Source of the DNA: Fibrobacter succinogenes
GTDB lineage: Bacteria > Fibrobacterota > Fibrobacteria > Fibrobacterales > Fibrobacteraceae
Assembly (NCBI GenBank): GCA_902762795.1
Contig: CACWPM010000001.1
Coordinates: 62,001 to 126,000 of the forward strand
Length of the DNA: 64,000 nucleotides
Direction of reading: 5' to 3'
Shown: in pieces, positions 22,427-64,000 of the stretch
Layout: each line of letters begins with the position of its first letter
Numbering within the stretch: the first letter of the stretch is position 1
Translations under genes and position numbers: made by a program
The notes under the pieces: generated by a model
What the model saw: the letters and a program-made list of their open reading frames with translations, nothing else
What the model was told of the DNA's origin: nothing
Databases searched by the model: none

Positions 22427-24022
22427 TTAGAAAAGTGCGCCATAGAGCACTATATCGTCCAGATAGAACTCCGTCCCGTTCTGAACGAAGAAATGCATCT
22501 GCCGGACATCGTCCTTCAACGAATTCCATGTGAAATAGCAGTTGCTCACATCCTGGGAATTATAGCACAGGTCTTCGGCCTTTACGACATAGCGCGTCCA
22601 TTTCGGTCCAAGGCTCTTCCATTCCGACGAAGCCTTCAAAGATTGCCCCGCCACCTCGGATTGACGATCCCAGTTTTCAAGCGACAAACGGATCTGTCCC
22701 GACCCCTTTGCATAGAACGAGATGGAATCGAGAGAAGAAAGGTTCCAGCCTTGAACGCAGAGCAACGTTCCCGTGACTACCCAGCCATAATAGCTATTTG
22801 TTCCTACCAGGCTATACTTGCCATGGAACACCTTCGACTTACGCTCCTTATCCGCTTCAAACGCCTTGTATAAAATCTTCGAGCCAATGGAATCGACGCT
22901 AAAGTACCAATTTGCGGTATCCTTTTCAAAATCCTGCCAAACGACCGACGGGGTATCGAAATGAGCGGAACCCTTGGAAGGTGCGATGTGCTTTGTTACA
23001 TATAAATTTTTATTTTTATCCACAACATAAAATTCAAGTGTATCGTTCGACGGAAGCATCGGAAGCGAGAACACACCTTCTTCATTCGTCTTCGTCATCA
23101 CATCCAAGCCATAGACTCCCACCCACGCAAACTTGTCTCCAGCGTGGAGCGTCACACGGCTCATGTAATTCGATGTTTCCTGGAGTTCAACTGTATCGAG
23201 AGCGGCGATCTGTTTTGCCGTAAGTTCCTTGGAATAAGCGAGCCCAGACTGGGTAACGGTCAAGCGATAGTTGCCGGATTTCAGAGAATCAATGGCAAAA
23301 GCTCCAAACTTGTCCGCATAAGCATCCACCTCGACAACAACGTTGTTCACACGCAAAGAATCGACACGGGCATCCGATTTACGAATCGCAAGCGATGCAA
23401 ACGGGACGGTCTTGCCCCCGGCAACAGCGACAAACTTGATCTTGCCTTTCGACGGCAAATCCACCACTTCGGATTCGTTCGGTTTGAGTTTTACAGACAA
23501 ATTGTCATAAACGGAATTGTCATCTCCACGCAGGAAGTAGACCTGCAACGAATCGTTCGACGGCAGCTGCGAAAGCTGGAAACGGCCCGTAGAATCAGAA
23601 CGCACAAGTTCGTCCATGCCACGCACACCGACCCAGACAAACTCACAACTGTCCGGTATTTCAGCATAACCGCCAAGAGAAGCCGTAGGTTCAAGGTTAA
23701 TGGAACCAAGATCGGTATCGCGGCTTGCGGAGAACAGACCGGTGTAAGCGGAACCGCCATGCACAATCGTCAAGCGGTACTCTCCATCCGGCGCCTCAAA
23801 CGAGAAATACCCGTTAGCATCCGCATAGAAATCAGCTTCGACAAGCGCATTTGTCGCTTCGTAAACAGAAGTCGTATAATCAACACTTCGAATGGCGACA
23901 CTCGCATACGACGCCGCCTCGCCGTTGCCCACATAGGCAAAACCGTTCGTCGTCTCGCTGCCGGGCCCGCCCGAGCAGTTCCATAGCATCAGAGCAGAAA
24001 ATATGCAGGCTAGCCGTTTCAT
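22427..24022 (-). CDS. Lipoprotein with duplicated beta domains and a carbohydrate-binding-like C-terminus
   Basis: This 531-residue protein has a lipoprotein signal (IFSALMLWNCSGG, Cys near 15). Two copies of a roughly 135-residue unit follow (about 40-180 and 205-345). Shared landmarks are ASVAIR/ASLAIR, VEADFYAD/VEVDAYAD, EYRLTI/NYRLTV, FVWVGVRGMD/FAWVGVYGLD and LPSNDSLQ/LPSNDTLE. They resemble carboxypeptidase-regulatory-like folds. The last 170 residues (WQDFEKDTANWYFSVDS; SLDSISFYAKGSGQIRLSLE; FYLDDIVLYG) resemble the CBM11/CIA30 galactose-binding fold. Likely a surface lipoprotein that binds a polysaccharide. Its ATG overlaps the TIGR02147 gene (ATGA). Confidence 0.82.
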   Translation of the reverse strand: MKRLACIFSALMLWNCSGGPGSETTNGFAYVGNGEAASYASVAIRSVDYTTSVYEATNALVEADFYADANGYFSFEAPDGEYRLTIVHGGSAYTGLFSASRDTDLGSINLEPTASLGGYAEIPDSCEFVWVGVRGMDELVRSDSTGRFQLSQLPSNDSLQVYFLRGDDNSVYDNLSVKLKPNESEVVDLPSKGKIKFVAVAGGKTVPFASLAIRKSDARVDSLRVNNVVVEVDAYADKFGAFAIDSLKSGNYRLTVTQSGLAYSKELTAKQIAALDTVELQETSNYMSRVTLHAGDKFAWVGVYGLDVMTKTNEEGVFSLPMLPSNDTLEFYVVDKNKNLYVTKHIAPSKGSAHFDTPSVVWQDFEKDTANWYFSVDSIGSKILYKAFEADKERKSKVFHGKYSLVGTNSYYGWVVTGTLLCVQGWNLSSLDSISFYAKGSGQIRLSLENWDRQSEVAGQSLKASSEWKSLGPKWTRYVVKAEDLCYNSQDVSNCYFTWNSLKDDVRQMHFFVQNGTEFYLDDIVLYGALF

Positions 24023-24855
24023 TTTGACTTCTCCTGCAATTTTTTAGTGAACGCGAGCGGGAACAACTGAATGTTCAACTGGAACACCGTATCGTCCCCC
24101 GTCCCGTCCTGCGACATGCGAAGCAAGTCCGAGCGGAACTCCTTTATTTTTTCGCGTATAAGCTGGATTTCATTCATGCTGAACGTCATTGTCACGGTGC
24201 TGACATCGCGCAAAGGGGGCGCATGCCGTTCAAGCGATTCCCCCGCTAGGCGAATCGTCTCTTTCTGGAACGTCCGAACAGCCTCGGACCTCCAGTTACC
24301 GCCTGTACTCACAAACGTATCATTCACTTTCCAGTATCCGTCCTTTCCCTCAGAGATCATGTTCAGGTCGTGCAGGAGCTTGATAGCATCCTTGGCCTGT
24401 TCCACCGTGATAGCCGGCGTGCAGCATTCGGCAAGACCTTCATAATCATCTTTAAAATTACAAATACCAATTACGGAACGGATTGCGTTATAGTACCAAT
24501 GGCGGTAAAATTCAAGTTCTTTTTTGGCAAGTCGCTTTAACGGGATGCCCTTTAACGCTTGCATCTTCTCATAGTGGTTCAGCGCTTCCTGGTCACTCTT
24601 GGAACGCCCGAAATAAACGAGCTCCGACCAGTAGGCGGCTTCCTTTTCATCAAGCTCGAAAAATTCGGCCATCGGCTTGATAAAGTTTACGGCGAGGTGG
24701 ATTTTGCCCTGCGAAATGCGAAGGAGATTTCCCGGATCCGCTCCGAGTTTCATCGCCATGTATCGCCAGGATATAACGGTCTTGCGCTTTTTGAAGTCTT
24801 CAAAAGCATCTCTAATCCATTCGCGATAATCGGTGTATTCAAAAATCGGCTTCAC
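24019..24855 (-). CDS. TIGR02147 family protein (F. succinogenes paralogous family)
   Basis: This 278-residue protein opens with the family's typical PIFEYTDYREWIRDAFEDFKK, a helix-turn-helix-like segment (MAMKLGADPGNLLRISQGK) and LNHYEKM. A winged-helix-like middle (EQAKDAIKLLHDLNMISE) precedes TFQKETIRLAGESLE and SMNEIQLIREKIKEFRSDL. No enzyme motif is visible. Many paralogues occur in F. succinogenes and, as I recall, they often adjoin lipoprotein genes. Here the gene is coupled by a four-base overlap to such a lipoprotein. A DNA-binding regulator of its partner is the simplest guess but is unproven. Confidence 0.9.
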   Translation of the reverse strand: MKPIFEYTDYREWIRDAFEDFKKRKTVISWRYMAMKLGADPGNLLRISQGKIHLAVNFIKPMAEFFELDEKEAAYWSELVYFGRSKSDQEALNHYEKMQALKGIPLKRLAKKELEFYRHWYYNAIRSVIGICNFKDDYEGLAECCTPAITVEQAKDAIKLLHDLNMISEGKDGYWKVNDTFVSTGGNWRSEAVRTFQKETIRLAGESLERHAPPLRDVSTVTMTFSMNEIQLIREKIKEFRSDLLRMSQDGTGDDTVFQLNIQLFPLAFTKKLQEKSK

Positions 24856-24991
24856 AGAAAATCCTTACGTCAGACGGCGCCCCGCATTATCCACACTACA
24901 ACTTCCCTTTCTCATCCAACACGAGACAATACGGGCGGTCTGAACCAATACAAAGATATCTTTATAGGGTTCAACAAGTTAGGGTTTACAG

Positions 24992-25360
24992 CTATCGTTC
25001 GTTGTGGAATTTTACAACGGAAGTCGAACCGACACCGCAAGTCGACAACCAGGAGCACTCCTCCAGATCGGCAAAACGGGTATCGCTACAGCGAGCTTCG
25101 AACACAAGGGTTCCGCGTTCATCAAGGCGGTAAGTTACTTCGTAAGAGATTTCAACTAGTTTGGACGAAAGCACAACCGGATGCCGCATCACCTTCGACG
25201 TGATGCCGATCACACATCCGTCCTTCAGTTCCGATGCCTCGGACGCTTCGTCCGCAGCATTCCAATGAAGCTGAATTTGCTTGAAATCTTCCACTTCCGG
25301 GCGCCCCGCGCAAGATACGAGGAACGTTGTCAGAACAACAAGGAGAAGCAAGCCCCGCAT
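24992..25360 (-). CDS. Small lipoprotein
   Basis: This 122-residue protein has a clear lipobox (LTTFLVSCAG, Cys at 17). The mature part holds paired cysteines (KDGCVIG; ARCSD; EECSWLSTCG) that could form disulfides in the periplasm or outside. No family recognised. It lies 12 bases after the diguanylate cyclase gene and is probably cotranscribed with it. The 136-base gap to the TIGR02147 gene contains no other gene. Confidence 0.75.
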   Translation of the reverse strand: MRGLLLLVVLTTFLVSCAGRPEVEDFKQIQLHWNAADEASEASELKDGCVIGITSKVMRHPVVLSSKLVEISYEVTYRLDERGTLVFEARCSDTRFADLEECSWLSTCGVGSTSVVKFHNER

Positions 25361-25372
25361 ACGCCAAGCCCC

Positions 25373-26704
25373 TTAATGACTGCGTCTGAATGTCGCAACG
25401 GTAACGCGGTTGCGACCGCCTTCCTTCGATGTATACAAAGCCTTGTCCGCACGTGCTATGAAGGACTTCGGGTCTTCGCCCGGAACCATTTCGGTCACAC
25501 CGAAGGAGCAGGTCACCTGTTGTTGCGTAATAAGCGTCGTCGTTTCGATAGCCTTGCGCAATTTCTCGGCAAGGAATGCCGCATTTTGGATACTCGTATC
25601 GTCACTCAGGATCACGAATTCCTCGCCACCCCAACGTACAAGGGAATCCGTATTGCGGATCATGCTCTGAACAAGCTTCGCAAGGTTCACGAGGACCTCG
25701 TCGCCGACAAGATGCCCGTATGTATCGTTCACATCCTTGAAGTGGTCGATGTCAAAAATCATGAACGACACAGGACCGCCCGTCCTGTTGAGCTTTTCCT
25801 GTTCGCGGAGGAGAACGCCGCTAAAGCCGGCACGGTTGAGGCAACCAGTGAGCGGGTCTTCCTTGCTGGAGCGTTCATACTCGCTCTTTTCGATTTCAAG
25901 GGCGCGAAGGTTCTTCTTGAGCTCTTCCTGCTTCTTCTTGTTGATGGCCCGTTCGCGGCTGTAGTCAAAGAACCTGATGATGAGAATGATAAGGAACGTG
26001 ACAAACCAAAGAGCGACAAGCGCAGACACGAGGTCCACCTGCGAAATCTTCTTTCCCTTGAAACGCAATCCCTTAATTTCCATGCCGCCATAACCGAGCG
26101 GAGCATTCGTTCCCGTTTGGATCTCAATCAGCGGAATGTTCGAAAGGTCGACACGCGCCTTGTGCACGTTAATCTCGTTTTGGGAAACCCACCAGCCAGC
26201 CACGCGAAATTCCTGCGGAACAAATACAGCCGGGTACGGTTCCTTGGTCGGTGTAAATTCAATTTCGTTGAACTTGAGGGACGTTTCGTCGTTCTTGCGG
26301 TAAAGCGCTTTGTCGTAACCGCGCATGTACAGGCGAACAGAACCTTCATTACGAGGCTTTAGCCATACGAAAACGCTGTCATAGTTTGAAAGGTCGAGCC
26401 CCTTGGACTTGCCGTCGCCAAGATAAATCTTGATTCCCACATACGGGTAGGCATAGCCCTCGCGAAGTTCATACTCGATCATGACCGAGCTATCCGAACG
26501 CATCATCGTGATTGCCGAAGTTCCTCCATCCACGGAGTCCGCACTAGCAACCACATAAGGATATTCGCCAAGATTAATGTCCAGAATCTCGTCCAAGAAA
26601 TGCCGATACGCAAACATGGCTACGGCAGTAACCACCAATAGCACAACAATCAGGAAATTCATCCTGAAAAGCGCATACACTTTTCTCATAACCTTCGAAG
26701 ACAT
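25373..26704 (-). CDS. Membrane diguanylate cyclase with a carbohydrate-binding-like periplasmic domain
   Basis: This 443-residue protein has a membrane helix at 14-33, a periplasmic domain (about 40-220), a second helix (224-246), a coiled coil (250-280) and a GGDEF domain (281-440). The active site is GGEEF at 359-363, and the inhibitory site RNTD at 350-353 is intact, so c-di-GMP should be made and feedback-controlled. The periplasmic part (DLSNYDSVFVWLKPRNEG; VRLYMRGYDK; LIEIQTGTNAPLGYGGMEI) resembles the CBM11/CIA30 fold seen in the lipoprotein at 22427-24022. It could sense a soluble sugar. A GTG at 26710 is an alternative start. Confidence 0.9.
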   Translation of the reverse strand: MSSKVMRKVYALFRMNFLIVVLLVVTAVAMFAYRHFLDEILDINLGEYPYVVASADSVDGGTSAITMMRSDSSVMIEYELREGYAYPYVGIKIYLGDGKSKGLDLSNYDSVFVWLKPRNEGSVRLYMRGYDKALYRKNDETSLKFNEIEFTPTKEPYPAVFVPQEFRVAGWWVSQNEINVHKARVDLSNIPLIEIQTGTNAPLGYGGMEIKGLRFKGKKISQVDLVSALVALWFVTFLIILIIRFFDYSRERAINKKKQEELKKNLRALEIEKSEYERSSKEDPLTGCLNRAGFSGVLLREQEKLNRTGGPVSFMIFDIDHFKDVNDTYGHLVGDEVLVNLAKLVQSMIRNTDSLVRWGGEEFVILSDDTSIQNAAFLAEKLRKAIETTTLITQQQVTCSFGVTEMVPGEDPKSFIARADKALYTSKEGGRNRVTVATFRRSH

Positions 26705-26769
26705 AATCACATATCCAAATTAGAACATGACAATCTAAATATACAAAAAAGGATGTGATTTACGCGAAA

Positions 26770-27819
26770 TTATCTCGAAAGCCACCGTCCAAGACGGGCT
26801 ATTATGGGTCTCAATGTGCGGGCGAGTTCCTCCTGGGAGTGCGTATCGGGATGGCCATGCAATCCGACATTCGAGGTAAGCACGTGTTTATACTCCAGAT
26901 CTTTATACCCGGCAGCAACTTGATCATCATAAATCGACTTTATCGTTGGAGCAAGATCATCATTAGGCCAAACTTTAGTCGAAACAAGCAAGAATTTTAC
27001 ACCTGGATGCACCTTTCGGAGCTTGTTAATCAGATTGACATACGATTTTTTAAAATTTCCTTTATCTGCATACGGAGGATTTCCCTGAAAATCGTTAATT
27101 CCTTCGAAAATCACAATAACATGCGGATGAAATTTTTCAAAATCCCAACGTTCAGGGCTCGGATACGACGTTACGGAACCCATCACCGTGTAATCGTAGA
27201 GCCTTTCGTACGTCCATTCGGGTATCATGTTGTCGTAGTTGCGCACAAGACCACGACCGCTGTAGGCATTCACCTGGTAGTCGGCATTGAAACCGCTCGC
27301 AAGGAGGTAGGCATAGCTCTTGGAGGCATTTGTCTTGTCGAACTCGGGAGCGTCCTCTGCAGAGGAACCTTCGCAACCGTAACCTGCGGTAAAGGAATCG
27401 CCGATGAACTCGATGCGGCGGGAGGACGGCTTGGGGGCTTCGCCAAATTCTCCATCGACAGAGATGCCGTAGAACTTGATCTCGGGAACGCCGCTTTCGC
27501 TAATCTTGATGAAGCGGTACTTGTGGAAAGCGCCATCGTCCTGAACCTTGACCGCATGAGCTTCCTTGGAATCGACTTCGAACTGTTCAATCTGCTTGCC
27601 GTCGCGGTCGAGACGCCAGCGGGAAAGGCCTTCGACCGTGAACATAATCTTTGAAGCCTTGGCATTAAATGTGATGGATGCGGCAGGCGCACTGGCACGG
27701 CTCACGCCGTTATCATGGGCCCAGCGGCCGTTGAACAACAGATTTTCCATAGAAGAGGATGCTCCGAACGAGAACGCGGCAAGCGCACTCAGCAAAAGGA
27801 ATATGCGGACTAGATTCAT
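26770..27819 (-). CDS. CE2-type SGNH acetyl esterase
   Basis: This 349-residue exported protein has a signal peptide (IFLLLSALAAFSFGA), an N-terminal jelly-roll region (about 25-130) and an SGNH hydrolase domain: GDSFTAGYG with the nucleophile Ser142, EGINDF with the Gly240/Asn242 oxyanion residues, and a catalytic His in the HGHPDTH segment near 321-327. The order beta-domain then SGNH fits carbohydrate esterase family 2, which removes acetyl groups from plant polysaccharides such as xylan and mannan. It suits a fibre-degrading life style. It adjoins the diguanylate cyclase gene with a 59-base gap. Confidence 0.85.
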   Translation of the reverse strand: MNLVRIFLLLSALAAFSFGASSSMENLLFNGRWAHDNGVSRASAPAASITFNAKASKIMFTVEGLSRWRLDRDGKQIEQFEVDSKEAHAVKVQDDGAFHKYRFIKISESGVPEIKFYGISVDGEFGEAPKPSSRRIEFIGDSFTAGYGCEGSSAEDAPEFDKTNASKSYAYLLASGFNADYQVNAYSGRGLVRNYDNMIPEWTYERLYDYTVMGSVTSYPSPERWDFEKFHPHVIVIFEGINDFQGNPPYADKGNFKKSYVNLINKLRKVHPGVKFLLVSTKVWPNDDLAPTIKSIYDDQVAAGYKDLEYKHVLTSNVGLHGHPDTHSQEELARTLRPIIARLGRWLSR

Positions 27820-62454: not shown

Positions 62455-64000
62455 CTAATCCTTGACGCAACGGACTGAAAAGCCATTATCCTTGAAAGAG
62501 CTGCCAAAGGACGTCTCTTCCGAAGAGAACGACATAAAATAAGAAACACGCCCATTTTCCTCTGAATCTTCCGTAACCGTCAGAAAAGACGCATAGCGAC
62601 CGTCAAACGTGAAAATACCGCTACGATATCTATCTCCAGAAGCGATTGCCGAAAAGCCGTAATCATCCGTGCCGTTATAGTTCCCGTCAATATCATTATA
62701 CCACCCCGTCTGCGATTTAAGCAAGGATCCCGCATTCTCGTGACCCCCCACAAATTCGATCAAGGTATGCCATTCCGTTGTATCCGGCAAATGCCAGCCG
62801 TCCGGGCAAATTCCCTGCACCTTGTCCGAGAACGTACAAGCTTTGCCATAGCCGCAAACCATTGGATTATTCGCGTCCAACGCAAGCTTTACGGAATCTA
62901 TCGCCGCAGACATTGTATACAAACGTCCAAGAACAGGACAGTATTCTTTCTTATCGTCCATGCACCAGCTATTATTCAAAAGACTTGGAGTCGTCGTGCT
63001 ATCGGCATAATTCAGATTCTGCGCCATCCAAGTCTGGGTACCGATTTTCACAGACATGTAAACTTGTCCATCGCGATTATCAACAATGGTATCGTAATAA
63101 ACATCCGGGTTCAAGAAAGATTCACGAGAAGGCAATACAAACGACCCCGTGTCCGAAGCGACATTTTCAACAAACCCATCGACAAACTTTTCAAACGCGG
63201 GAATTTCTTCTGCATAATTCAAGCGCTCGAGATTTTTGCGAACGGCATCCATTTGGCCACTTGCTTTTGCAGCGGCAGCCCAGTCCGCAATATCCGATTT
63301 TACGCTATCACTCCACGAACCGTCTTCTGCAATCGAGTTGCTTAATTTATCCATACGTTCATCAAGACCGGAATACCTGTTCGAATCATTCGAGGCTTGC
63401 ATCAGCACACTCACCGCAAGGAGCGCCGCATTCCCGTCACCCGGTTCAAAGATGTTCATGTCTTCAGGCTTTGCAAAATTTCCTTCTACGCCGAAAGCAG
63501 CAAGGACTTCCTTTTCGGCCTGGTTTTTCGCATCCGCAAAGGACTTATTCTTTTCCGTCACAAGCTTCACCACGCGTTCGAATTCCAATCGCGTAAGCAA
63601 GTTGATGTTCACATTATTTCGATTGTTCAAATCCGTAAGCGCACGGAGCGTGACCTTTTCGGCCGTCTTTTCCCCTGTAATTTCATTGAGATAATGTCCC
63701 GTCACTTCGAATACCGCACATGACGAAGTGAGGGAGATTCCTTCGACATCAAAATCGCCCTTGTCACTCTTGACCACGCCCTCGAAACGTTCATCGGTAA
63801 GCCCCATCGTCCGGCAGTCCACACCCTGCACCGTCACGACAGAACCTTTGACAAACGGGCCCTTCTGCGACACACCAGCTACATTCAAGTTTTGGACCGC
63901 AAGTCCCGCGTCTTCCGTGGTACCGCCCGCAAACTTGTCGTCCGAACATGCCGCCAAAAGCACAATCGACACAAGCGCAATAAAAACCGCAAAACATTTC
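62455..64000 (-). CDS. FISUMP-domain lipoprotein, 5' end outside the window
   Basis: The open frame runs past the right edge, giving a partial protein of at least 514 residues. The visible start is a lipoprotein signal (KCFAVFIALVSIVLLAACSDD). The middle is a mostly helical lipoprotein region (NVNINLLTRLEFERVVKLV; FGVEGNFAKPEDMNIFEPGD). The last 190 residues are the Fibrobacter succinogenes major paralogous (FISUMP) domain: VKIGTQTWMAQNLNYA, GRLYTMSAAI, GICPDGWHLPDTTEW and GFSVRCVKD. FISUMP domains sit on many surface lipoproteins of the genus; ligand unknown. The GTG at 63972 is inside the signal peptide and is not the start. Confidence 0.9.
   Translation of the reverse strand, partial: KCFAVFIALVSIVLLAACSDDKFAGGTTEDAGLAVQNLNVAGVSQKGPFVKGSVVTVQGVDCRTMGLTDERFEGVVKSDKGDFDVEGISLTSSCAVFEVTGHYLNEITGEKTAEKVTLRALTDLNNRNNVNINLLTRLEFERVVKLVTEKNKSFADAKNQAEKEVLAAFGVEGNFAKPEDMNIFEPGDGNAALLAVSVLMQASNDSNRYSGLDERMDKLSNSIAEDGSWSDSVKSDIADWAAAAKASGQMDAVRKNLERLNYAEEIPAFEKFVDGFVENVASDTGSFVLPSRESFLNPDVYYDTIVDNRDGQVYMSVKIGTQTWMAQNLNYADSTTTPSLLNNSWCMDDKKEYCPVLGRLYTMSAAIDSVKLALDANNPMVCGYGKACTFSDKVQGICPDGWHLPDTTEWHTLIEFVGGHENAGSLLKSQTGWYNDIDGNYNGTDDYGFSAIASGDRYRSGIFTFDGRYASFLTVTEDSEENGRVSYFMSFSSEETSFGSSFKDNGFSVRCVKD

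Follow-up and report, generated by a model that had tools for sequence, protein, structure and literature searches.

In the genome of Fibrobacter succinogenes, a gene of the TIGR02147 family and the lipoprotein gene that follows it form a recurrent cassette, which is described here starting from one copy located within a 64,000-nucleotide stretch of genomic DNA (contig CACWPM010000001.1, positions 62,001 to 126,000; "the window"). The cassette, a short tag shared by its lipoproteins and palindromic sites ahead of the regulator genes are features of the sequence itself. Taken as one unit, the two genes probably encode an autoregulated local transcription factor and the single surface lipoprotein whose production it would drive. 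A preliminary description of the window had guessed at an undescribed pair made of a TIGR02147 protein and a surface-type lipoprotein, and the sequence comparisons reported below support this core guess.

The genome holds 41 TIGR02147 matches, in keeping with the multi-copy character previously attributed to the family in this species. Thirty-six are complete copies; the other 5, fragments or genes cut by contig ends, were left out. Downstream of all 36, an open reading frame (ORF) with a lipobox starts between -59 and +14 nt from the TIGR02147 stop codon. The two genes overlap in 24/36 pairs, an upper bound, as the most upstream start was taken for each partner ORF. Since all complete paralogues share the arrangement, the pairing found in the window is not due to chance. 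In the window, where translational coupling had been pointed out before, the overlap is of 4 nt (ATGA). In a second genome from a distant member of the genus (G030), 26 of 27 TIGR02147 genes are followed by a lipoprotein gene, and the 27th faces a tagged lipoprotein gene divergently, across about 120 nt. The excess of lipoprotein neighbours among paralogues, set in advance as a test, is therefore present in both genomes.

All 41 genomes of the genus Fibrobacter contain TIGR02147 genes, with 6 to 45 matches each. Across the phylum, the family is found in 110 of the 120 genomes sampled, and many copies per genome are frequent. Ten genomes, belonging to genera g15 and g18, are the only sampled ones lacking the family, and offer a natural comparison for the purpose of the cassette. 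A search of viral contigs found no relative. Thirteen further genomes of the phylum supplied 30 loci: the 29 evaluable ones are all paired, the last sequence ending 13 nt after the stop codon. A scan of genome contigs (80 loci, 86 copies) gave 78 clearly paired copies out of 85 evaluable, the two samples overlapping in that several loci are the same genes (e.g. L073 and L121). The remaining copies are an ambiguous one (L190), one with a lipoprotein at +217 (L152) and five lacking a downstream lipoprotein: the next gene encodes another type of protein in L132 and L189, and none was found downstream in L133, L179 and L187+. L179 does have a tagged lipoprotein, on the opposite strand. It belongs to a TIGR02147 group including also L187 and L244 (2807-5413): the L244 copy is divergent from a tagged lipoprotein gene, and the L179 copy is divergent from a secreted-type gene of 802 aa, beyond which the tagged lipoprotein is found. 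Nine scan loci bear titles from outside Fibrobacterota (Desulfobacterales, Bdellovibrionales, other delta-proteobacterial bins, one "Proteobacteria" and one bacterium); all nine include a lipoprotein, directly behind the regulator gene in eight. In distant partners (L077, L096, L098, L086 and other loci), R, N, W or Y is frequently found at position -1 of the lipobox, and the rule for signal peptidase II may thus be less strict in them.

The 36 partners are dissimilar, with a mean identity of 10% and Cys16 as the sole invariant residue, apart from a tag, G-x(1,2)-[ST]-E-x-x-N, which is found in most of them shortly after the lipid-bearing cysteine and which was not observed among 35 control lipoproteins. 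Examples are AGATSETTNG and, in delta-proteobacterial bins, GGTEIGNP; GGPGSETTNG is unchanged in six aligned sequences, the window partner and five orthologues at 76-80% identity. A gapless tag profile, trained on 107 partners from elsewhere (a few scan loci among them being labelled F. succinogenes), separated the 36 partners from 35 control lipoproteins, drawn from 464 kb of the same genome, with an area under the curve of 0.85. Nineteen partners score above every control, and 16 do not exceed the second-highest one. The low-scoring partners mostly belong to a subfamily whose tag is one residue shorter; L053, for which the script took the wrong cysteine, is also among them. A strict regular expression was dropped (15/36 partners of this genome, 18/29 and 48/80 elsewhere, versus 1/35 controls), as was a gapped profile, in which pairs and controls were mixed in the lower half. 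For the tag, the likeliest role is that of a signal for sorting or assembly, specific to these lipoproteins; a role as the contact through which the regulator would sense its not yet exported partner is less likely.

The regulators form one homologous family, and the pairs therefore probably arose by duplication of one pair. That the pairing reflects nothing but descent from one ancestral operon, the two products being functionally uncoupled, seems very improbable. The bodies of the lipoproteins are interchangeable, with FISUMP domains in 8/36 partners, CarboxypepD_reg in 9/36 and single cases of pectate lyase and CBM_4_9, whereas adjacency and tag were kept throughout, in other phyla and in a divergent rearrangement as well. 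FISUMP is treated as a putative cellulose-binding domain in PMC4704652. The genome contains 104 FISUMP (TIGR02145) matches, many of them in large multi-domain ORFs on contigs C13, C18 and C29. In the window, a FISUMP domain (62458-63090, minus strand) lies in an apparent second tagged lipoprotein of the next TIGR02147 cassette, the regulator of which is located just outside (G000:C1:127075-127878).

DNA binding by the TIGR02147 proteins is supported by candidate operators ahead of their genes. In the window, an 18-bp palindrome is located about 102 nt upstream of the TIGR02147 start; a sequence close to TATAAAGATATCTTTATA is kept in 14 orthologous upstream regions (the window and 13 relatives), and no other site with two or fewer mismatches was found elsewhere in the genome. 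Its reading as a terminator is weak: the strand does fold, at -12.3 kcal/mol, but no T-run lies behind it. In the larger, RELAP subfamily, several paralogues carry the pattern TAnnnnACA-N3-TGTnnnnTA, with arms differing by paralogue, mostly centred about 122-124 nt upstream. The pattern occurs at 9 genome sites, 5 of them upstream of TIGR02147 genes and 1 upstream of an unlinked lipoprotein gene, and its reversed control at 6. The half-site is repeated about 71 bp further downstream; in 12 of 17 examined regions the repeat stands 4-7 nt ahead of a TTG -35 box, and in most of these 12 a TA-rich -10 ends 6-8 nt before the start codon.

These features were compared with those of other genes and with shuffled sequences. 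Palindromes of 9/9, centred 90-150 nt upstream, precede 6/36 TIGR02147 genes versus 1/314 other genes. The enrichment persists when the chosen distance window is removed (perfect palindromes at 20-290 nt: 9/36 versus 0.75 in shuffles), as well as in the phylum set (12/106 versus 1.1). The two-copy site, at an automatic score of at least 13.5, was found for 12/36 TIGR02147 genes versus 1/314 other genes and 0.33 in shuffles, and was replicated in G030 (5/26 at a score of at least 14, 0 in shuffles). A -35/-10 pair placed for a leaderless message was observed in 15/36 versus 4/314 cases. Direct repeats at 60-80 bp alone (13/36, versus 4.6 in shuffles and 40/314 genes) were set aside. The sole other gene with a two-copy site encodes the same unlinked lipoprotein as above (L106:4175-5317, on G000:C12), which has neither tag nor adjoining TIGR02147 gene; its operator, TGTTGCATA, comes with a -35/-10 pair like that of the C18 cassette, and the gene is a candidate trans target.

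Divergence of the helix-turn-helix (HTH) domain was found to track that of the half-sites. For a curated set (n=19), HTH distance and half-site distance correlate with r 0.35 (p 0.001), versus 0.04 for the rest of the protein; for an uncurated one (n=18), the partial r is 0.41 (p 0.003) versus -0.06, and within RELAP alone (n=17) the correlation is 0.33 (p 0.0065). As the rest of the protein does not follow the operators, these values support, without proving, that the TIGR02147 protein reads the candidate sites. Calculated segment by segment, the covariation is highest at residues 9-16 rather than in the recognition helix.

The structure model of the window regulator (mean predicted local distance difference test, pLDDT, 84.7) predicts an XRE-type HTH at residues 7-90, joined to a winged helix at about 107-180. 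The HTH fold matches 2eby (Z 8.7, root-mean-square deviation (rmsd) 2.6, 75 aligned residues) and 9chn (Z 8.9, rmsd 6.0, 84 aligned), Z 8.9 being the best value, with many matches tied. The A1 profile against PDB reached a best E of 0.009. No membrane-like stretch was found in the window regulator, its maximum 19-residue hydropathy being 0.59; 34/36 regulators stay below 1.6, and the other two exceed this value within the first residues of ORFs that are probably over-extended.

Several observations weigh against a cassette controlled by its own regulator. Foldseek returned nothing under E 0.001 for the regulator, the best E being 0.08 or worse. The HTH correlation disappears when the operator set is at its strictest (12 genes; r 0.09, p 0.32), and at a score of 13.0 a two-copy site was not recognised in 18/36 loci, among them most of the divergent subfamily. 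In the window itself there is a single palindrome, and no clear promoter is seen. A palindrome that follows an upstream gene can be a terminator, and the choice of both the distance window and the consensus of the half-site was made with the data already seen. To these are added the 5/85 scan loci with no downstream lipoprotein, and the chance that some of the control lipoproteins are spurious ORFs.

In the favoured, autoregulatory scheme, the TIGR02147 protein would bind the sites before its own gene through the XRE-type HTH. The proximal site abuts the -35 box, a place typical of activators, and the most likely role of the regulator would therefore be to amplify the leaderless message of its own gene when its winged-helix and C-terminal part reads a cue in the cytosol. 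We infer activation, as the direction of regulation, from the position of the site alone; the signal and the role of the tag we infer as well. Translational coupling would yield the lipoprotein, which would then be exposed on the outer membrane. As the operator letters are private to each paralogue, the dozens of cassettes may be insulated from each other and switchable one at a time. In the window, the displayed protein, with its CBM11-like module, would bind a glycan.

The same features could serve surface variation with no external signal, positive autoregulation making each cassette bistable, so that each cell would expose only some of its surface lipoproteins, in a changing selection. Such a module fits the numbers of matches in the genus (up to 45 in one genome), the two-site promoters with one site at an activator position, and a lipoprotein evolving much faster than its regulator (74-78% versus 95-97% identity at 13 loci; 39% versus 78% in G030). 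We regard it nonetheless as unlikely, considering that the sign of regulation follows from site position only, and that the CBM, pectate-lyase and FISUMP bodies of the partners suggest substrate-linked roles.

A sensing loop between the two partners was given a similarly low rating. Here, the C-terminal part of the regulator would bind the tag of the newly made, unexported lipoprotein, whose state of export or amount would feed back on transcription. The tag is specific to the partners and is present in the cytosolic pre-protein, the regulator has no membrane segment, and the L106 lipoprotein (L106:5317), with a matching operator and no adjoining TIGR02147 gene, has no tag. The C-terminal part (residues 181-265) correlates with the tag, other domains removed, with a partial value of 0.22 (p 0.002, 36 pairs), and of 0.23 (p 0.01) within RELAP. 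The correlation is weak, however, co-inheritance alone yields some, and within RELAP the HTH correlates with the tag too (0.33). An envelope-linked switch of a new kind, in which, for each of dozens of cassettes with private operator codes, the tag at the N-terminus of the lipoprotein would be read before export by the soluble regulator of that cassette, is a speculative extension to which we likewise assign a low probability; if true, it would couple the surface display of each lipoprotein to its own transcription.

The five genes of the window locus, all on the minus strand, are located where the preliminary description had put them, and are reported in Table 1 together with the tag and the candidate operator. 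The lipoprotein, described before as having two repeated beta units, contains two CarboxypepD_reg-type (transthyretin-like) stretches. The whole-protein model is weak (pLDDT 58), better at about 420-530; residues 370-531 match, with tied scores, CIA30/NDUFAF1 (7zkq: Z 11.4, rmsd 3.9, 151 aligned) and CBM11 (1v0a: Z 11.1, rmsd 3.7, 136 aligned), in agreement with the fold proposed for this end. No Pfam match up to E 10 was found for this region, which on sequence is thus not assigned to the CBM11 family. Given the fold, glycan binding by this lipoprotein is plausible.

Table 1. Features of the TIGR02147 cassette and of its neighbours in the window.
Feature	Position	Strand	Remarks
TIGR02147/DUF4423 protein, 278 aa	24019..24855	-	357.6 bits vs cut-off 50; DUF4423 110.6 vs 30
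Predicted regulator domains			XRE-type HTH ~7-90, winged helix ~107-180, C-terminal part 181-278 (structure model)
Partner lipoprotein, 531 aa	22427..24022	-	two CarboxypepD_reg-like units; CBM11/CIA30-like C-terminal fold 370-531
Post-lipobox tag common to partner lipoproteins	23936..23977	-	encodes residues 16-29 (lipid Cys16 plus tag): CSGGPGSETTNGFA
Candidate operator	24941..24973	.	18-bp palindrome 24949-24966, one mismatch, within outer arms TGAACC...GGTTCA
Small Cys lipoprotein, 122 aa, without tag	24992..25360	-	neighbour kept in 14/14 relatives; unit membership not shown
Membrane diguanylate cyclase (DGC, GGDEF)	25373..26710	-	neighbour, outside recurrent unit
CE2-like GDSL esterase	26770..27819	-	neighbour, outside recurrent unit

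The locus had also been read as a polysaccharide-sensing pathway, in which the lipoprotein binds a glycan, the DGC and TIGR02147 signal contact through cyclic di-GMP (c-di-GMP), and the esterase deacetylates the polymer. Besides the CBM11/CIA30-like fold, such a reading can call on gene order: DXS, geranylgeranyl diphosphate (GGPP) synthase, lipoprotein, TIGR02147, small lipoprotein, DGC and esterase are kept in this order in 13 close relatives, as far as the stretch reaches, and in G030. In the 13 relatives, identities are 95-97% for the regulator, 74-78% for the lipoprotein, 59-73% for the small lipoprotein, 92-95% for the DGC and 80-93% for the esterase. DGC and esterase thus keep their place beside the pair in 14/14 relatives, but the unrelated GGPP synthase and, where reached, DXS do so too. 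Around the other cassettes of the genome, a DGC (GGDEF) homologue is found near only two loci, and the esterase and small lipoprotein near none. The pair moreover has its own candidate operator region between itself and the upstream genes, and nothing visible would link, across the inner membrane, a lipoprotein of the outer membrane with a regulator that is soluble. As they do not recur, DGC and esterase stand outside the unit; with the small lipoprotein, they are stable neighbours of the window pair. On this ground the c-di-GMP/esterase pathway was rejected as part of the unit. A c-di-GMP link is unsupported, and the sensing pathway as a whole appears highly unlikely. The carbohydrate-binding fold proposed for the periplasmic domain of the DGC was not confirmed (hhalign E 0.07, probability 0.8 of 100, 33 columns), and this domain had no match among PDB sequences. 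As for the esterase, its GDSL match is above cut-off, and those to CE2_N (22.5 vs 27.9) and AxeC2 (101 vs 500) are both below.

Some known systems resemble the cassette in part. Lambda CI binds next to the -35 box of PRM, and regulators of the XRE/Cro-CI type share with the TIGR02147 proteins the HTH fold, the palindromes before the own gene and a site abutting -35; the cassette regulator differs in adding a winged helix of DNA-binding type, a family-specific C-terminus and a coupled lipoprotein. Polysaccharide utilization loci of Bacteroidota, regulated by hybrid two-component systems (HTCS) or sigma/anti-sigma pairs with SusCD, likewise comprise numerous paralogous loci in which a regulator goes with a glycan-binding lipoprotein of the surface, but the cassette relies on a single soluble regulator, with no membrane-spanning sensor. 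A further parallel is that of RRNPP quorum regulators and lipoprotein-derived peptides (PrgX, PlcR). An XRE-type HTH (3u3w, PlcR: Z 6.9, rmsd 2.2, 65 aligned) and a lipoprotein gene are common to both; in the cassette, however, the conserved stretch follows the lipid cysteine instead of preceding it, and the regulator model shows the winged helix (~107-180) rather than an evident tetratricopeptide repeat array, the C-terminus not having been searched alone. The lipoprotein export signal of Bacteroidota is also a short motif with an acidic residue right behind the lipid cysteine, whereas the cassette tag has another consensus and is tied to the partners of one regulator family.

The window protein is a member, by curated cut-off, of TIGR02147 (Fsuc_second, an NCBIfam "paralog" family), corresponding to PF14394 (DUF4423), which has no assigned function in the libraries; pairing, tag and operators stem from the present analysis. 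A literature search, with subscription journals largely outside its reach, found no paper on TIGR02147 and nothing on its function. DUF4423 appears, in the accessible text of one source, as a table row for Bd3700 of Bdellovibrio, and the accessible parts of the Fibrobacter proteome and phylogenomic papers PMC6851124, PMC4704652 and PMC4619616 mention neither TIGR02147 nor the pairing. If the cassette model is true, the TIGR02147 family would gain a function, with binding sites predicted base by base. Surface-type lipoproteins of one class, among them FISUMP proteins suspected of a part in attachment to fibre, would be recognisable by the tag, and the choice of surface by the fibre degraders of the rumen would become more accessible. 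The model also gives a first hold on the role of a family that is large and unstudied, made of probable DNA-binding proteins of the fibre-degrading Fibrobacter and its relatives.

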